A stretch of 64,000 nt of DNA, from contig NZ_CP137891.1 in the NCBI RefSeq assembly GCF_033547075.1, positions 2,914,001 to 2,978,000 on the forward strand, in the 5' to 3' direction. Under the pieces are notes generated by a model that was given only the letters and a program-made list of their open reading frames with translations, made no database searches and was not told the origin of the DNA. The position numbers were made by a program, and so were the translations under genes. Positions within the stretch are counted from its first letter, which is position 1. The number at the start of each line of letters is the position of its first letter. Positions 795 to 11,292 of this stretch are shown here, in pieces. Origin of the DNA: Flavobacterium ardleyense (GTDB lineage: Bacteria; Bacteroidota; Bacteroidia; Flavobacteriales; Flavobacteriaceae).

Positions 795-1097
795 ATGCAA
801 TTACTGTTCTTTATACTTTTCTATCCACTTATTTGGCTAATTTCCATTTTACCTTTTAAACTGCTATACTTCGTTTCAGATTTTTTTTAAATCATCGTTT
901 ATAAATTAATTGGGTACAGAAAATCTGTCGTTCGACATAATTTAAAACTAGCTTTTCCAGAAAAATCAGAAGCGGAAAGATTAATTATCGAAAAGAAATC
1001 TTACCATCACCTGTGCGATATTTTTATGGAAATGATAAAAACGATGAGGAATGCTGATAAAGAGATTCAAGAAAGATTCAAATTTGTCAAAGTATGA
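795..1097 (+). pseudogene. Decayed lipid A / lysophospholipid acyltransferase (LpxL/HtrB-like), 5' fragment
   Basis: Translation from the ATG at 795 starts MQLLFFILFYPLIWLIS, hits an in-frame TAA at 888-890 (codon 32), continues in the same frame as IIVYKLIGYRKSVVRHNLKL and LAFPEKSEAERLIIEKK, and stops at 1097. This matches the N-terminal third of the roughly 290-residue Kdo2-lipid A-type acyltransferases (membrane anchor, then an R-HNL-AFP-KS-E segment). The part holding the catalytic HxxxxD motif is gone. The internal stop lies in a run of eight T, so a point change or slippage could explain it. The remnant is too short to be active. An intact paralogue elsewhere is likely but not visible here. 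Confidence 0.75.
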
Positions 1098-1129
1098 TAA
1101 GAATCATAATGATATGCCAAGTTTAGAAG

Positions 1130-1137
1130 TATCTTTG
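1130..1137 (+). promoter_or_regulatory. Bacteroidota -7 promoter element for the copper cluster
   Basis: TATCTTTG matches the TAnnTTTG -7 consensus. It ends only four bases before the ATG at 1142, so the transcript would start at or next to the start codon and could be nearly leaderless. No TTG is seen at the -33 position, which suggests an activator or a weak promoter. Confidence 0.5.
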
Positions 1138-1141
1138 CACC

Positions 1142-1507
1142 ATGAAAATCTTTATATTCATAATTGTTACAGTTTTACTTCTAAAACCTGCATTGCCGTT
1201 TCTGGAGTATGTTGTCAATTATGATTATATAACCCAAGTTCTTTGCGAAAACAAAGCGACACCTGAATTAGAATGCAATGGAAAATGCCATCTTATGAAG
1301 GAACTTGCAAAAGCTTCGGAGGTAGAAAAACCCTTATCATCACAAAAAAAATCAGTGGTTGGATTTGAAATCATGTTTTTTCAAAAAATCCAAGAATTTA
1401 CTGTCCTTACACCTAATTCTACTTATTTGGTAGTTAGTAATTATTACTTTGATAATTACACATACTTAGTACTAGATACGCCCTTTCGTCCACCCACAGT
1501 AGCATAA
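1142..1507 (+). CDS. Small secreted Cys-motif protein, first gene of copper-uptake cluster
   Basis: This 121-residue protein starts with a hydrophobic signal or anchor segment (MKIFIFIIVTVLLLKPALPF). It carries Cys35, Cys45 and Cys49 followed by His50, in ECNGKCHL, which could bind a soft metal such as copper. The rest has no recognised domain. It lies directly upstream of a Met/His-rich lipoprotein and an OprC-like copper TonB receptor on the same strand, so a role in periplasmic copper handling is inferred from context. I recognise the layout as one seen before flavobacterial receptor genes, but I know of no characterised function. Confidence 0.7.
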   Translation: MKIFIFIIVTVLLLKPALPFLEYVVNYDYITQVLCENKATPELECNGKCHLMKELAKASEVEKPLSSQKKSVVGFEIMFFQKIQEFTVLTPNSTYLVVSNYYFDNYTYLVLDTPFRPPTVA

Positions 1508-1602
1508 TTTTTTATTGACTCATATTATTGATTTCTCCAATGGCATTTTAGTCATTGGATGTAACATCGTATTTAAACAATTCAAAAAAAAAATTATAAT
1601 AT

Positions 1603-2475
1603 ATGGAAACTAAATTTTCAAAAAACATCTTGCTTTCTGTGGCAAAAATTACTTCTATCATCGTCTTAATATTCTCAATGAACTCTTGTAGTTCAGACGA
1701 TGACAATAATCCCATATCGGATGAAACAGCGGGACTTGTAAAAATTCAAACAATCGAAAACGACATGCATTCAATCGAATTATACTCACAGAGTGGTACG
1801 TTAGTTCAAGGGTATAATTCGGTTTCTTTTCGAATAAAAGACAAATCAAATTCAAATTATATCACACCTTCGAGCTTAAGTTGGATGCCGATGATGCATA
1901 TGACAAATATGATGCATGCCGGGCCATTTTCGGAAATTAAGGTTATTTCGGGAACAAATCTGTATAGTGGTTATCTTGTCTTCCAAATGGCTGAAAATGC
2001 TAGTGAATTTTGGGAAATTAGATTAAAATACAGTGTTAACGGGCAGGAACATCAATTAAATGCGCCAATTTCGGTCGTTGCAAGTGCAAAACAACGTGTA
2101 ACGACTGTTACGGGACCTGACGGCGTGAAATATATTTTGGCTCTAATTGAACCTACTACGCCAAAAGTCGCTTTGAATGATATAACTGTTGGGGTTTTTA
2201 AAATGGCTTCGATGACTTCGTTTCCAATCGTAGATAATATGAAAATCTCAATTGATCCACGTATGCCTAGTATGGGGAATCACGGATCTCCAAATAATAT
2301 TTCACTTACACAATCTACTTTAGATAGGTTATACTACGGAAAACTTTCGCTTACAATGACAGGATATTGGAAAGTAAATATGCAGCTTTTTGATGCTAGC
2401 AATGTCCTTGTTGCTGGTCAATCTATTGAAGGCGCTGTAGAAAACAGCACTTTATATTTTGAAGTAGAATTCTAA
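1603..2475 (+). CDS. Met/His-rich lipoprotein, YtkA-like, copper cluster
   Basis: This is a 290-residue lipoprotein. The signal peptide ends in FSMNSC with the lipidated Cys at 29, followed by an acidic SSDDDNN tether. Residues 95-105 hold an unusual Met/His cluster (WMPMMHM, NMMHAG) typical of periplasmic Cu(I)-binding proteins and of YtkA/CopC-like beta-sandwich domains. A second Met-rich stretch (DPRMPSMGNHG) follows near residue 225. It lies between the small Cys protein and the TonB receptor, so it probably binds copper at the cell surface or in the periplasm and works with the receptor. The copper assignment is inference from residue content and neighbours. Confidence 0.75.
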   Translation: METKFSKNILLSVAKITSIIVLIFSMNSCSSDDDNNPISDETAGLVKIQTIENDMHSIELYSQSGTLVQGYNSVSFRIKDKSNSNYITPSSLSWMPMMHMTNMMHAGPFSEIKVISGTNLYSGYLVFQMAENASEFWEIRLKYSVNGQEHQLNAPISVVASAKQRVTTVTGPDGVKYILALIEPTTPKVALNDITVGVFKMASMTSFPIVDNMKISIDPRMPSMGNHGSPNNISLTQSTLDRLYYGKLSLTMTGYWKVNMQLFDASNVLVAGQSIEGAVENSTLYFEVEF

Positions 2476-2495
2476 ATTTACTCTTCTATTATAAT

Positions 2496-2521
2496 ATGGT
2501 CGGATTTACGAATCCGACCAT
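2496..2521 (+). other. Perfect GC-rich hairpin between lipoprotein and TonB receptor genes
   Basis: Arms ATGGTCGGATT and AATCCGACCAT (11 bp, perfect) close a TACG tetraloop. No T tract follows, so it is more likely an mRNA stabilising or attenuating stem inside the operon than a full terminator. It lies 16 bases before the receptor start codon. Confidence 0.6.
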
Positions 2522-2536
2522 TCTTAAAACAAAGTT

Positions 2537-4531
2537 ATGAAAAACTTTAAATTTTTGATGGTAGCTGTAGTAGTTGCAGCGTCATCTTATGCACAAGAAA
2601 TTGAAAAAGACAGTACTTCGACCCATAGTTTAAAAGAGGTGATTGTGATTGGTCAAAAAGCAACTCTTGATAAGAAACAGTATAAATCTCTTGGTACGGT
2701 TGAGGAATATCTGGAAAATTCTCCAAAGATAAATATGATAAAAAGAGGTGGTTACGCTTGGGAACCACTTATAAATAATATGCCATCAGAAAGAACTTTG
2801 ATTACAATTGATGGAATGCGAATTTTTGCTGCTTGTACCGATAAAATGGATCCCATAACAAGTTATGTTGAAATATCTAATTTGTCCGAAGCATCGATTG
2901 TTTCGGGACAACAAGGCGCTGTTCACGGCTCCACGATTGGCGGCGGAATAGATTTGAAAAGACAGCGAGGAACATTTAAGGATTCTGGTTGGAAAGGATC
3001 TGCTCAGGCAGGTTTCGAGACAAATAATAAACAGAAAATTGGCGGCCTTGCTACACAATATTCAGACAGTACCTTTTATTTTGATGCAGCCTTTATGGCA
3101 CGAGATGCCGAAAATTACTATGCTGGAGATCGCAAAGAGGTTTTGTATAGTCAATATGGCAAGTACAACGTTTCGGGAAATCTTGGTTTTTTGTTAAATC
3201 GCAATTCGGTTTTGGAAGCTTCTATTATTTATGATCGAGCGACAAATGTAGGATATCCTGCCTTGCCAATGGATGTATCTCTAGCCGAAGCATTGATTAC
3301 ATCAGCTACCTATAAAATTATGCCGACAGAATTGTGGTATTCTAAATGGGATACTAAGATCTACTTTAACAAAATAACACATATCATGGACGATAGCAAA
3401 CGTCCTGACGTTCCAATACGCATGGATATGCCTGGTTGGTCTACAACTTACGGATTTTATTCAACTATCGAGAGACATCAAAACAAACATCACCTTACTG
3501 CAGATATCAATGGGTTTCTAAATCAGTCGCGGGCAAAAATGACGATGTATCCAAATGATCCAAATGAGAACGCGATGTTTATGCTTACTTGGCCCGATGT
3601 TCAGACAAGATACGTGGCGCTACAATTGAAGGATCATCTAGTTATATCTGATAATTCAGATCTCGAAATTTCGGCAAGTTTGGGTGCGCATACCAATGAG
3701 GTGACGGATCTATTTGGACTACAAAGTCTGCAGATTATCTATCCAGAAATGGAAGCTAGCCACACAAGATTACTAAAAAGTTTAGCGGTAAATTTTAATT
3801 ATAGTAATTCAGGATTAGGATATGGACTAGGTTTAGGATATGGCGAACGTGCCGCTTCAGTTTCGGAAGGATATGGATTTTATCTTTTTAATAGTTTTGA
3901 CCGTTATGATTATATCGGAAACCCTACACTTAAAAATGAGCAATCATTGGAATTCAACTTCTTTTCGTCCTTTAAAACAGAAAATACTAAGGTGCAACTA
4001 AGCGGATCGTATTTTAATATTCGAAATTATATCGTTGGTATTCCGAAGCCATCATTTCTGCCAATGACTATTGGCGCTGATGGTGTAAAAGTATATTCGG
4101 CACTTAATTATGCGGTAATCGCATCGGCCGACATTACTTTTGAGCAGAAACTAACTGAAACTTTTACCTTTTCGGCGCAAGCTACTTACAGTCAAGGGCA
4201 AGATGATAATGGCGGCAACTTGCCATTTATTAGTCCATTACAATATAAGACTGCCCTAAAATACTATCGAAATCAAACAAGTGCCGAAATTTCTTTTCGA
4301 GGGAATGCTGCACAAACGGCATTCAATTCCTTTTATGGGGAAGATCGCACTGCTTCTTATGGCGTTTTTGATATGGCTTTGGCAAAATCATTTACCTATG
4401 AAAAAACAAATTTGACCGCAAAAATTGGGGTTGAAAATATTTTGGATAGTCACTATTCTACTTATACCGATTGGAACAATATTCCAAGAATGGGTAGAAA
4501 TATATTTGTAAGTTTAAAATTTAGCCTCTAA
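2537..4531 (+). CDS. TonB-dependent outer-membrane receptor, OprC/NosA-like copper importer
   Basis: This 664-residue protein has a signal peptide ending in SSYAQ, a plug domain (about 30-150) with LITIDGMRIF and a Gly-rich GSTIGGGIDL, and a beta-barrel ending in a C-terminal Phe-x-Leu strand (VSLKFSL). There is no carboxypeptidase-like N-terminal extension, so it is not a SusC type. Cys100 and Met104 in ACTDKMDP and His282 and Met284 in THIMDD reproduce the CxxxM and HxM pair that binds copper in Pseudomonas OprC, at almost the same separation (about 180 residues). The upstream Met-rich lipoprotein supports copper as the substrate. The receptor family is certain; copper specificity is strong inference. 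Confidence 0.92.
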   Translation: MKNFKFLMVAVVVAASSYAQEIEKDSTSTHSLKEVIVIGQKATLDKKQYKSLGTVEEYLENSPKINMIKRGGYAWEPLINNMPSERTLITIDGMRIFAACTDKMDPITSYVEISNLSEASIVSGQQGAVHGSTIGGGIDLKRQRGTFKDSGWKGSAQAGFETNNKQKIGGLATQYSDSTFYFDAAFMARDAENYYAGDRKEVLYSQYGKYNVSGNLGFLLNRNSVLEASIIYDRATNVGYPALPMDVSLAEALITSATYKIMPTELWYSKWDTKIYFNKITHIMDDSKRPDVPIRMDMPGWSTTYGFYSTIERHQNKHHLTADINGFLNQSRAKMTMYPNDPNENAMFMLTWPDVQTRYVALQLKDHLVISDNSDLEISASLGAHTNEVTDLFGLQSLQIIYPEMEASHTRLLKSLAVNFNYSNSGLGYGLGLGYGERAASVSEGYGFYLFNSFDRYDYIGNPTLKNEQSLEFNFFSSFKTENTKVQLSGSYFNIRNYIVGIPKPSFLPMTIGADGVKVYSALNYAVIASADITFEQKLTETFTFSAQATYSQGQDDNGGNLPFISPLQYKTALKYYRNQTSAEISFRGNAAQTAFNSFYGEDRTASYGVFDMALAKSFTYEKTNLTAKIGVENILDSHYSTYTDWNNIPRMGRNIFVSLKFSL

Positions 4532-4854: not shown

Positions 4855-5757
4855 CTAATGTTCTAATGAGTTATCTTGCTTTTTATCTCGGATAAAATAA
4901 ACGCCAATCAAGATAAGAAGTCCGCCGAGAGCGTACCAAAGTGTGAACTTTTCGCCGTCAAGAATTCCCCAAATTACTGCAACCACAGGAAGTAAGAGCG
5001 AAATAGTACTGGCAAAAACCGCCGATGTATCTTGAACGAGTTTAAAAAAAAGAAACATCACCAGTGTGGTGCTAATCACGGTAAGAAAAATTAGATAGCC
5101 CAGAGATTCTAGAATTTGAGATTGGGTGAAATCAATTTTGGTGAAGAAACCTGAAAACGCTAAAATAAGCAGCGATGGCAGCATCCAAAATGTATAAATG
5201 GAACTCGCAAGGTCTACAGATGAGATGTGCATTAATTTTTTTTCGATTATTAGAGCCGAAATTGCGTACAAAGCGGCGCCGAGAATCAGAATGCCAATGT
5301 AAAAATAATGATTGGAGCTGCTATCATCTCCAGAGCTCAAAACCAGCACCAAAGCCCCTGCAAACCCAATGATTGCACCGAAATACTGAATTATTTTGTT
5401 TCGGATTCCAAAAAGTAAAGCGCCGATTAACAATGTAAAAATCGGATCGAGCGCGTTGATTATTCCCGCTAATGAACTGCTAACTTCCCGTTGCGCAAAG
5501 GGAAAAATGAAGACCACAAGGAAATTTCCAAAAAAACCTGAAAGCGCTATCCAAAACACATCTTTTCTGGACATTTTTCGTAATGCCGGAAAGCCAATGA
5601 AAGCCAAAAGTAAGCCTGAAATTCCGGCTCTAAAAGCCCCAATCTGCAATGGATCGAAAACTGGCAAGGTCTTTTTGATCAATATAAAAGAGGAGCCCCA
5701 CGTGATGGCGATGATAAATAGAACGAGGAATTTTTTGGCGAGGAGTTTTTTGAGCAT
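4855..5757 (-). CDS. EamA/DMT superfamily transporter
   Basis: This 300-residue protein has about ten hydrophobic helices arranged as two EamA repeats, as in the RhaT/YdcZ/RarD drug-metabolite group. The first repeat opens with FIIAITWGSSFILIKKTLP, the usual W-G-S-F signature, and the second holds ALYAISALIIEKKL. Members export amino acids, nucleosides or other metabolites; the substrate cannot be told here. It stands alone on its strand with a 415-base divergent spacer upstream. The C-terminus is short and charged (RDKKQDNSLEH), which fits a cytoplasmic tail. Confidence 0.9.
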   Translation of the reverse strand: MLKKLLAKKFLVLFIIAITWGSSFILIKKTLPVFDPLQIGAFRAGISGLLLAFIGFPALRKMSRKDVFWIALSGFFGNFLVVFIFPFAQREVSSSLAGIINALDPIFTLLIGALLFGIRNKIIQYFGAIIGFAGALVLVLSSGDDSSSNHYFYIGILILGAALYAISALIIEKKLMHISSVDLASSIYTFWMLPSLLILAFSGFFTKIDFTQSQILESLGYLIFLTVISTTLVMFLFFKLVQDTSAVFASTISLLLPVVAVIWGILDGEKFTLWYALGGLLILIGVYFIRDKKQDNSLEH

Positions 5758-8500: not shown

Positions 8501-8514
8501 ATGATATAGGTCAT
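8501..8514 (+). promoter_or_regulatory. Palindromic operator (CRP/FNR-type) upstream of scdA
   Basis: ATGATATAGGTCAT is an ATGA-N6-TCAT inverted repeat. Its centre lies 22 bp plus half a site from a -7-like TACCTTTA (8537-8544), which puts it near -41.5 from the expected transcription start, the class II activator position. The same site at the same spacing is found upstream of the 607-residue gene at 11279-11292. Confidence 0.65.
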
Positions 8515-8536
8515 AAAAAAGGACAATATTATCCTT

Positions 8537-8544
8537 TACCTTTA
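8537..8544 (+). promoter_or_regulatory. -7-like element of the scdA promoter
   Basis: TACCTTTA differs by one base from TAnnTTTG and lies exactly 22 bases after the upstream palindrome. The leader to the ATG at 8591 would be about 40 bases. Confidence 0.5.
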
Positions 8545-8590
8545 CAATGGTTCTAAATAATCTATAAACAGTTTTTAAAAATATAAAATT

Positions 8591-9319
8591 ATGACAATTC
8601 TAGATGAAAAAACAATTGGTGAATATGTAGCGCAAGATTTCAGAACTGCTGCTGTATTTTCAAAGTATGGTATCGATTTTTGTTGCAAAGGGAATCGTAG
8701 TATTACAGAGGCTTGTGAGAAAAAAGCATTGGATCCAACAAAAATTCAAGGTGAGATAGACAAGTTATTGCAAACTTCGCAAACCGGTCACATTGATTTT
8801 ACCAGTTGGCCGCTCGATTTGCTAGCAGATTATATTGAAAAAACGCACCACCGCTTTGTAGCCGAAAAATCGCCCCTATTGGTGGCTTTTCTTGATAAAC
8901 TGTGCAAAGTTCACGGGCACAATCACCCTGAATTATTTGAAATTACTGAATTATTTAAAGGTTGTGCACAAGAATTAGGCAGTCACATGCAAAAGGAAGA
9001 GCAGATTTTATTTCCTTTTATCAAAAAAATGGTAGCTAGCAATTTGAATAATTCCGAATTAGATCAGCCTGGCTTTGGATCGGTAGCGAATCCAATTGCG
9101 ATGATGAAAGCGGAGCATGAGAATGAAGGAGAACGTCTTGAAAAGATTTCTGCCCTCACAAATAATTATCTGCCGCCTGCTGATGCTTGCAATACTTACA
9201 AAGTTACGTACGCAATGCTGCACGAATTTGAACAAGATTTACACACACATATTCACCTAGAAAACAACATATTATTCCCCCAAGCTTTGCAAATGGAATC
9301 GCAAATGGCATACGCATAA
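8591..9319 (+). CDS. scdA: Iron-sulfur cluster repair di-iron protein (RIC, ScdA/YtfE family)
   Basis: This 242-residue cytoplasmic protein repairs Fe-S clusters damaged by nitric oxide or oxidative stress. The N-terminal ScdA_N domain carries the Cys31-Cys32 pair in GIDFCCKGNRSI. The rest is a hemerythrin-like four-helix bundle with the di-iron ligands in EKTHHRF, HGHNHPE, SHMQKEEQILFPF, KAEHENEGE and HIHLENNILFP. Length fits the family. It has its own promoter with a CRP/FNR-type palindrome upstream, which is how nitrosative-stress genes are usually controlled in this phylum (HcpR/DNR-type regulators). It converges on the 607-residue gene with a shared terminator, and both carry the same operator. 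Confidence 0.93.
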   Translation: MTILDEKTIGEYVAQDFRTAAVFSKYGIDFCCKGNRSITEACEKKALDPTKIQGEIDKLLQTSQTGHIDFTSWPLDLLADYIEKTHHRFVAEKSPLLVAFLDKLCKVHGHNHPELFEITELFKGCAQELGSHMQKEEQILFPFIKKMVASNLNNSELDQPGFGSVANPIAMMKAEHENEGERLEKISALTNNYLPPADACNTYKVTYAMLHEFEQDLHTHIHLENNILFPQALQMESQMAYA

Positions 9320-9346
9320 TCTTTCAATTACTATTTTTTAAAACCT

Positions 9347-9376
9347 AAAAACCCGGCTTAATTAGGCCGGGTTTTT
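9347..9376. terminator. Bidirectional terminator between convergent genes
   Basis: Arms AAAAACCCGG and CCGGGTTTTT form a GC-rich stem with A and T tracts on the two sides, so it can serve the scdA-like gene and the convergent 607-residue gene. Confidence 0.85.
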
Positions 9377-9395
9377 CATTATCTTTAGTAGCAAT

Positions 9396-11219
9396 TTATA
9401 CTAATACTTCACTGTCTTTTGAGGGTGATAGTGCGTTAAGTTCCAAACTATAAAGTTTTAACTCTTCTTCAATCTTGCCTCTTGTCTGGACAAAAAACGT
9501 TGAATGATCAAACAAATCACGGTAATAATTAATTCCCTCTAGCAGATTGGCTTGAAAATTTTTCAGTTTTTTAAGTTGCGCTAAGGATGCATTTTCTGAA
9601 ATATTTCCTAATTCCTCTTTAAGGTACTCTACATACATTTTGATTTCATTGATAAACATATTAGGCCTAGAAATAGTTTCATTAATAATATTTGTTTTGC
9701 CGTAGATATGTTGTGCCATTGTATTTAGCGAAACTTCTTTATCAAAATAAGCCAAATTTGGTCCAGGGCAAATTACGATTCCTTGCTGCTGTCCTTTAAT
9801 TTTGATGCCATTTTCAAGGTAAGATGCATTAGCCAGACCTACACAAAGACAGGCTTTTTCGGTGATTTTGATCTTTTTGTACTCAAACTCTTTTGCCGAA
9901 AGTGTTTCTTTCTTCTGTTCTAATAAGGCAAGTTTTAAATCTTGAAATTTCTTCGAAGCGGAGCAAATTCCTTGTTCACCATACTCCTTGCTCAATGCCA
10001 GAAGTTTTTTTGGGCAAGAACTTCCCGGTTTATTCTGCTCGATTCTCGATTGCTTAAAATATTCATTGCTCATTCCTCTCACCGTGTTAAAAGGCACTCC
10101 TAAAGGTGAAATATCACTTAAGTAAAAATCTTCTTCTTTCGCTTTCGCTAAAATTGCTCTAGTCTCCAAATCTACCGAAGTTGCTTCTGGCACTAACAAA
10201 AATGGTGATCCCCAGCCTACGGAAGTTACTTTGTAATGGTCTAGCAAGAAATCGTGCTCCTCTGCTGTACCTACACCACCTTGTGCAGTTATTATTAATG
10301 GCAGAGGCTCTGTAGGGATGGGAAGGTTTTTTAATTCGAGTGCTTTGATCATTAATGAATGTGCCGACTCTATTAGTTCTAAACGTCTATTTTTAAATTC
10401 TTCCAAAATCGGTCCCATCAGATGCCCATCGGTGGCAAATGCGTGACCGCCACAATTAAGACCAGATTCTATTCGATACTCGGATACCCACAATCCTTTT
10501 TTTGCCAAGAAATTTCCTTGAATCATCGCCGAACGATAATCGCTCACTTTGAGAATAATCTTTTTCCTGAGCGAACCCTGCGTGTCCGGATAAAAATCGC
10601 TAAAATGCTCGAAATATCCATAAAGTCTTGGATTCATCCCCGCCGAAAGAATTACCGAAGATGTCAATGTACTATTAGCAAATCCTCTCAATGCCGCGTG
10701 CGCATCATTAAAAATCGCCTCTTGTTTTACATCGCCAATGAAGTTTTCTTTGTCAATCTTTGTCATAATATTGACATCAATCGCTCCTGCGAAAAGATTT
10801 TCATCTAGATAATTCTTCAAAGATTCTTTGATTGCTACACCATTCCCAACGAATGATTTCAATCCCTGACTGAGGTCTGAGTGCGTAGGCAACATATTAC
10901 TAAAATTTTCTAGCTGCTCCTTGCTTTCTACTAACTGATTTTTGAAATCCTCTAGTTTCGTCTTTACAATCGTGTCCATCATATCTAGATAATGAGTGAT
11001 TCTCGACGCTCTGTAATCATGAAATTTTTGTGTAATTTCTTGGTAAGGAATTGAAAATTTTTTACTGTAAAATGACCTCATCTTTTCTATGAGATCATCA
11101 TCTGTAATGGATAGTGCCGAAGCAATACCTAAGTGAGCCACACGAATTGGACTGTCAATGGTATATGCAAGACCCATGACAGGAATGTGAAACGTATGAC
11201 TATTTTTTGTCTCTTTCAT
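9396..11219 (-). CDS. Unknown 607-aa protein, possible TIM-barrel enzyme, co-regulated with scdA
   Basis: I do not recognise a named family. Conserved-looking blocks are HIPVMGLAYTIDSPIRVAHL (11-30), an acidic helical section (about 60-145), ESGLNCGGHAFATDGH (251-266), IITAQGGVGTAEEHD (309-323), VTSVGWGSPFLLVPEA (331-346) and SPLGVPFNTVRGMSNE (371-386). The AQGGVGT and SVGWGSPF blocks are reminiscent of the phosphate-binding end of FMN-dependent TIM barrels such as nitronate monooxygenase; this is only a resemblance. Six Cys occur at 256, 402, 419, 457, 459 and 484, mostly in the second half (GSSCPKK, GICSASKK, ACLCVG, VICPGPN), which could hold a metal or Fe-S site. There is no signal peptide. 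Its promoter copies that of scdA, so a role in nitrosative or low-oxygen stress is inferred. Confidence 0.85.
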   Translation of the reverse strand: MKETKNSHTFHIPVMGLAYTIDSPIRVAHLGIASALSITDDDLIEKMRSFYSKKFSIPYQEITQKFHDYRASRITHYLDMMDTIVKTKLEDFKNQLVESKEQLENFSNMLPTHSDLSQGLKSFVGNGVAIKESLKNYLDENLFAGAIDVNIMTKIDKENFIGDVKQEAIFNDAHAALRGFANSTLTSSVILSAGMNPRLYGYFEHFSDFYPDTQGSLRKKIILKVSDYRSAMIQGNFLAKKGLWVSEYRIESGLNCGGHAFATDGHLMGPILEEFKNRRLELIESAHSLMIKALELKNLPIPTEPLPLIITAQGGVGTAEEHDFLLDHYKVTSVGWGSPFLLVPEATSVDLETRAILAKAKEEDFYLSDISPLGVPFNTVRGMSNEYFKQSRIEQNKPGSSCPKKLLALSKEYGEQGICSASKKFQDLKLALLEQKKETLSAKEFEYKKIKITEKACLCVGLANASYLENGIKIKGQQQGIVICPGPNLAYFDKEVSLNTMAQHIYGKTNIINETISRPNMFINEIKMYVEYLKEELGNISENASLAQLKKLKNFQANLLEGINYYRDLFDHSTFFVQTRGKIEEELKLYSLELNALSPSKDSEVLV

Positions 11220-11248
11220 AAAATAAATAACTAAATTAATATGAAGCC

Positions 11249-11256
11249 GAAAATTA
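11249..11256 (-). promoter_or_regulatory. -7-like element of the 607-aa gene promoter
   Basis: Read on the minus strand this is TAATTTTC, one base from TAnnTTTG. It lies exactly 22 bases after the palindrome at 11279-11292, the same geometry as at scdA. Confidence 0.5.
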
Positions 11257-11278
11257 GGACAATCAAGTCTTTAAAAGA

Positions 11279-11292
11279 ATGATATATGTCAT
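11279..11292 (-). promoter_or_regulatory. Palindromic operator (CRP/FNR-type) upstream of the 607-aa gene
   Basis: ATGATATATGTCAT (plus-strand reading) is identical to the scdA site in 13 of 14 positions, with the same ATGA-N6-TCAT half sites. It lies 22 bp from the -7-like element, consistent with class II activation. Confidence 0.65.

Follow-up and report, generated by a model that had tools for sequence, protein, structure and literature searches.

The stretch of DNA analysed here, called the window below, comprises 64,000 nucleotides of Flavobacterium ardleyense (positions 2914001-2978000 of the single 3,185,123-bp contig NZ_CP137891.1) and contains two neighbouring genes that are each preceded by a palindromic operator of nearly the same sequence. 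The gene scdA (8591..9319, forward strand) encodes RIC, a 242-residue di-iron protein for the repair of iron–sulphur (Fe-S) clusters, whose ScdA_N and hemerythrin domains (PF04405, PF01814) and TIGR03652 score of 248.1 bits, over the cut-off of 204.7, place it in the RIC/ScdA/YtfE family. The other gene (9396..11219, reverse strand) encodes a 607-residue protein with a predicted triosephosphate isomerase (TIM) barrel of the flavin mononucleotide (FMN) type, a cysteine-rich subdomain and a FabX-like fold. The best explanation as a whole, to which we assign a probability of about 0.7, is that an FNR-type activator acts at both operators and that the 607-residue protein is an enzyme carrying FMN and an Fe-S cluster.

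Operators, spacing and conservation

The operator of scdA, ATGATATAGGTCAT (8501..8514, forward strand), is followed by a -7-like element, TACCTTTA (8537..8544, forward strand). That of the 607-residue gene, ATGATATATGTCAT (11279..11292; a palindrome listed without a strand, reading ATGACATATATCAT on the reverse strand), is followed by the -7-like element TAATTTTC (11249..11256, reverse strand). As the original prediction held, the two palindromes agree in 13 of 14 bases, and in both cases the gap to the -7-like element, taken toward the operator's own gene, is exactly 22 bases. A third operator in the same window, ATGATAAGAATCAT (1094..1107, forward strand), which that prediction had overlooked, precedes its -7 element TATCTTTG (1130..1137, forward strand) by the same 22 bp. 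In F. psychrophilum the TAnnTTTG box is described as spanning -12 to -5 (PMC9723704), and because the boxes at scdA and at the 607-residue gene are placed by this rule, both palindromes are centred at -41.5. The suggestion of a shared activator of the CRP/FNR type at a class II position finds support.

Could such palindromes simply have arisen by chance in AT-rich intergenic DNA? Loose patterns by themselves are no more frequent than in controls. In the window, matches with up to three mismatches number 21 against 17.6 expected; in the genome, ATGAN6TCAT occurs 63 times against 76 for the reversed control, ATGAYN4RTCAT 17 times against 13 (no clear enrichment), and matches with up to two mismatches 15+21 times against 28+30. 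The exact ATGATATATGTCAT has three occurrences in the genome. The genome search originally proposed, for palindrome, 22-bp gap and -7 box together, gives a different picture: the composite TGAYN4RTCA-N23-TAnnTTT has 13 matches against 0. Combined with the conservation of the site at related genes, described next, this rules out coincidence as an explanation for the two sites and leaves it with next to no credence.

Conservation was assessed upstream of relatives of the 607-residue gene at 105 loci in 104 genomes (29 + 76 loci, our own excluded). A motif matching at 9 or more of 10 positions lies within the 300 bp upstream at 82 of these loci and is perfect at 56, as against 6 of 105 for a mirrored control motif, 145 of 2,100 for block shuffles, and a mean of 5.4 (maximum 10) of 105 in 40 dinucleotide shuffles. 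The element [TC]AnnTTT starts 22 nt past the site at 51 of the 82 loci and nAnnTTTG at 49, with at most 6 loci for any other offset from 0 to 37, and the spacing formed no part of the selection criteria. This fixed geometry is a requirement of class II activation. The proposed link to the 607-residue gene is supported, and it is conserved. Two Bizionia loci (L047, L048) carry perfect sites that start 75 and 73 bp ahead of the open reading frame (ORF). Near the gene at seven distant loci, six from Bacteroidota and one from Desulfobacteraceae (L049-L055), there is no full ATGAYN4RTCAT; in two of them (L050, L051), AAGATTATAGTCAT, which departs from the motif at one position, occurs at 5753 within an upstream ORF.

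Relatives of RIC were sampled as the best-scoring loci out of the genomes with a match, 125 in the family and 62 in the genus, our own included. At the family level a 9/10 site lies within 600 bp in 1 of 29 relatives (L140, 208 bp upstream), and at the genus level one lies within 700 bp in 17 of 29, in 15 of these at 157-211 bp upstream. These counts exclude RIC as a conserved core partner. Judged by sequence, the scdA site is real in this genome and less conserved than that of the 607-residue gene. RIC-like matches (E 1e-3, distant ones included) co-occur with the 607-residue gene, being found in 71 of 105 genomes with it and 54 of 194 without it. At six of eight genus loci (L176, L177, L181, L183, L185, L193) the operator has RIC on one side and, on the other, a divergent pair of genes read as norC-norB; there it may serve nor rather than RIC, and the same regulator may control nitric oxide reductase in those relatives. 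The other two, located beside a nadA-like gene, have sites of 9/10 and 10/10 that start 71 and 68 bp ahead of the RIC match.

A putative low-oxygen regulon

Ten of the 13 composite matches precede a co-oriented ORF of at least 60 residues with its start within 120 bp, a number that rules out the two-promoter regulon initially envisaged. Besides scdA and the 607-residue gene, they stand ahead of a short ccoS-like ORF followed by ccoNO, of hemN, of a copper nitrite reductase with a cytochrome c domain (TIGR02376, 359.7 bits; cut-off 296.3), of a CBS-domain-like protein for which no model exceeds its cut-off, of a 772-residue outer-membrane beta-barrel protein, of an operon in the window (1142-4531), and of two further ORFs, FtsY-like and TolC-like. 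An additional 10/10 site, at genome position 1670002, is flanked by ccoI and a divergently oriented CRP/FNR gene. This gene content is largely that of an oxygen-limitation regulon. Nitrosative stress alone, which had been brought up as fitting the RIC protein at scdA, accounts for these targets less well than low oxygen does. The induction of cbb3 and heme-synthesis genes reported for oxygen-limited F. psychrophilum (PMC9723704) agrees with the low-oxygen reading and has no bearing on the 607-residue gene.

The window operon behind the third operator is probably devoted to copper uptake, to go by its encoded products. Its first ORF (1142..1507, forward, 121 residues) has no family match; the second (1603..2475, forward, 290 residues) looks lipoprotein-like by eye and gives a weak YtkA-like match below the cut-off; the last (2537..4531, forward) encodes a TonB-dependent receptor whose best model is TonB-copper (E 1.2e-33, below its cut-off). 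The -12 rule would make the A of the start codon ATG at 1142 the first transcribed base of this operon, in other words give a leaderless mRNA.

Several other sites are of less certain standing. The operator stands upstream of CBS-domain-like proteins both in Bizionia (L047:723-1227) and in this genome (L057:1060-1476), perhaps marking a further shared target. Two weak composite matches, at 814596 and 2067668, overlap ORFs. The site at 2134118 (L066) has the 22-bp spacing and no co-oriented ORF of at least 60 residues within 450 bp; it could precede a small RNA. The site at 1611094, before the ORF named FtsY-like by eye, may belong to other control. At 1839016 (L063) the palindrome TTGACATAGGTCAA, of the TTGAC type, stands 22 bp from TATCTTTG, before the TolC-like ORF and near another CRP-family gene (L081); it may belong elsewhere, perhaps to another class II regulon built on a different half-site.

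The candidate regulator and its rivals

Which protein could read the operator? The foremost candidate is a 226-residue FNR-like regulator encoded beside the cbb3 oxidase genes (genome 1669284-1669961), with an effector domain scoring over the cut-off of PF00027 (65.2 bits) and with Fnr, PRK11161, as its best NCBIfam model (E 2.5e-24, below its cut-off). In a sample consisting of the best 30 loci of 180 genomes, our own included, an operator of at least 9/10 lies within 600 bp of the fnr-like gene at 27 loci and is perfect at 19; the shuffle controls cover the loci of the 607-residue gene only. The recognition helix is conserved in these loci as GTA(T/V/I)ES.IR, a TATESxIR-like helix with the E..xxR pattern, and cysteines C4, C7, C53 and C106 are invariant in all 30, C106 aligning with the cysteine of VCEIP in solved FNR. 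In Escherichia coli FNR the ligands of the [4Fe-4S] cluster are C20, C23, C29 and C122. The regulator described here likewise has an N-terminal CxxC and a cysteine at the C122 position, and its invariant C53 could replace a ligand of the C29 type. The sites at ccoI/fnr, ccoNO and hemN match the FNR-type pattern of control over cbb3/fix genes and the regulator's own locus, and such control we infer from the sites. With the regulons of E. coli-type FNR and of FixK/FnrL the system shares class II sites, the likely targets cbb3, ccoI, hemN and nirK, and a site at the regulator's own gene; it differs in the half-site, ATGAY rather than TTGAT, in a -7 box of the Bacteroidota type and in the inclusion of the 607-residue gene. 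Within the open-access literature, no paper contained every term of the queries about an FNR regulon or its motif in Bacteroidetes or the Flavobacteriaceae.

A close FNR-like regulator (E 1e-40) occurs in 180 of 299 family genomes, namely in 91 of the 105 with the 607-residue gene (our own included) and 89 of the 194 without it, counted with no phylogenetic correction. Several observations weigh against assigning the operator to this protein. The genomes are related, so that a Fisher test for this co-occurrence overstates their independence. At 23 of the 105 related loci there is no site of at least 9/10. The regulator has nothing that corresponds to C29, third among the N-terminal cysteines of E. 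coli FNR. A close FNR is absent from 14 of the 105 genomes that have the 607-residue gene, and the operator is nevertheless present in 13 of these. In some genomes another sensor may therefore read it.

The operator might accordingly be read by some other member of the CRP/FNR family, such as the 205-residue one of this genome (helix RVETVIR) or proteins of about 350 residues elsewhere, both of which retain E..xxR in their recognition helices. Weaker CRP/FNR relatives are found in 13 of the 14 genomes without a close FNR (best E 6e-34), and 10 of the 14 (L292-L299, L302, L303) encode the ~350-residue proteins, with a receiver-like N-terminus (by eye), a CRP/FNR C-terminus and a helix, A(T/P/S)E(S/T)LIR, resembling that of FNR. 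Moreover, 6 of 26 measured CRP/FNR relatives have a site of at least 9/10 of their own in the 300 bp ahead of the gene, and two of these sites (L290, L306) are perfect. Other members of the regulator family have been assigned differently: CRP/FNR homologues of a metagenome-assembled genome of Flavobacteriales are predicted in PMC8510549 to sense carbon. Against another family member stands the fact that the fnr-like gene has the operator far more regularly (27 of 30), a comparison in which the search ranges differ (600 and 300 bp) and the rival regulators are narrowly sampled; we regard a different family member as improbable. Slightly less probable still is a nitric oxide sensor of the HcpR or DNR type governing scdA and the 607-residue gene as a nitrosative-stress pair. 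RIC and NirK are among the targets, and the genus loci with norC-norB-like genes (6 of 8, by eye) would suit such a sensor; the same operator before the fnr-like gene and the presence of cbb3, hemN and copper uptake favour oxygen limitation instead. The operators given in PMC1274295 are GTAACnnnnGTTAC for HcpR2 of Bacteroides and others and TTGATnnnnATCAA for DNR/FNR, both unlike ATGAYnnnnRTCAT, and the HcpR label of the original prediction is rejected on this ground. The HcpR2 regulon does belong to the CRP/FNR family in Bacteroidota, as does the system here, and differs from it both in its operator and in its targets, hcp being the sole one in most Bacteroides according to the same source. 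FNR-type control of both sites is very likely on balance; the identity of the regulator and its sensing of oxygen we infer.

The 607-residue protein and its possible role

The 607-residue protein belongs to a family of at least 7,999 homologues. A first model, from 14 sequences (predicted local distance difference test 67.6), gave generic barrel matches only; FabX ranks first in both structural aligners for the 607-residue model, and the predicted fold contains a TIM barrel of the nitronate monooxygenase (NMO) type. PfaD and trans-AT enoyl reductases, FabK and nitronate monooxygenases align structurally to the same fold with scores below that of FabX. H259, in the motif GGH, is invariant in 76 of 76 relatives and may correspond to the catalytic H182 of FabX, judging by the motif. 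The invariant cysteines follow as C402-x16-C419-x37-C457-x-C459-x24-C484. The enzyme FabX of Helicobacter pylori and relatives, which takes part in making unsaturated fats, shares a predicted barrel with FMN-type motifs, the GGH histidine and a cysteine-rich part behind it; at 363 residues against 607 it differs by the long helical insertions of the present protein, the lack of detected sequence similarity and the cysteine spacing. We consider the NMO/FabK/FabX fold, as modelled, very probable, and an Fe-S cluster reasonably probable.

What might such an enzyme do? The possibility that it acts in unsaturated-fatty-acid synthesis is a tentative one, and the match in fold has no backing from sequence. 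The family has no match in Pfam or NCBIfam, its search against PDB sequences returned noise only, hhalign, run against the single FabK-like protein of the genome and not against FabX itself, gives it a probability of 2.5%, and no homology to PF03060, the NMO family, was detected in its sequence. The [4Fe-4S] ligands of FabX are given as C300-x3-C304-x3-C308-x11-C320 (PMC8626469), a spacing of x3-x3-x11 that the 607-residue protein lacks, and by eye the listed loci of its gene contain no fatty-acid neighbourhood. According to PMC8626469, a [4Fe-4S] cluster has so far been found in no other characterised member of the family. A search of the open-access literature for FabX together with Flavobacterium gave one paper, which concerns screens in Bacteroidales. 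Gonococcal NGO1024 is called UfaA. It is described as a relative of FabX, and a FabX from Bacteroidales as ~40% identical to HP0773 (PMC11300592).

The odds are even that the protein is instead a flavin enzyme acting on another substrate, be it a PfaD-like enoyl reductase, a nitronate oxidase or something new, and no acyl carrier protein-linked (acyl-ACP) dehydrogenase of the FabX type. This alternative has to contend with the top rank of FabX in both aligners and with the cysteine-rich part behind the GGH motif that both proteins share, which in FabX binds the [4Fe-4S] cluster (PMC8626469). The cofactors and the substrate of the 607-residue protein are putative. The fullest version of the enzymatic reading, doubtful as a whole, is that the family represents unrecognised Fe-S flavoenzymes of Bacteroidota with a new layout of cluster ligands, induced by FNR at low oxygen in facultative flavobacteria to desaturate acyl chains when the O2-dependent desaturase fails, with Bacteroidales relatives that lack the operator.

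While the sites, their spacing, their conservation and the predicted fold are direct results of computation, the FNR-type explanation connects them as follows. As oxygen falls, the FNR-like protein would regain its cluster and bind ATGAYnnnnRTCAT centred at -41.5, presumably recruiting sigma-A polymerase at a TAnnTTTG-like box that lies 22 bp further on. The regulon of this protein would probably include the cbb3 oxidase genes, ccoI (through the divergent site), hemN, the copper nitrite reductase, the probable copper-uptake operon, RIC, the CBS-domain-like protein, the outer-membrane protein and the 607-residue protein. The cell would then make a high-affinity oxidase, supply it with copper and heme, and produce nitrite reductase, RIC and the 607-residue protein, most probably a flavoenzyme of the NMO/FabK/FabX fold that contains FMN and an Fe-S cluster and is formed when oxygen is scarce. 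Our best guess is that it takes part in low-oxygen synthesis of unsaturated acyl chains, beside the O2-dependent desaturase of the genome.

The analysis offers a defined operator, a spacing and a candidate regulator through which flavobacteria may control genes at low oxygen, and ties to that control a widespread and unstudied ‘hypothetical protein’. If the enzymatic reading is true, the protein might give these bacteria a route to unsaturated lipids under oxygen shortage, and the FabX fold would then be known with two Fe-S designs.
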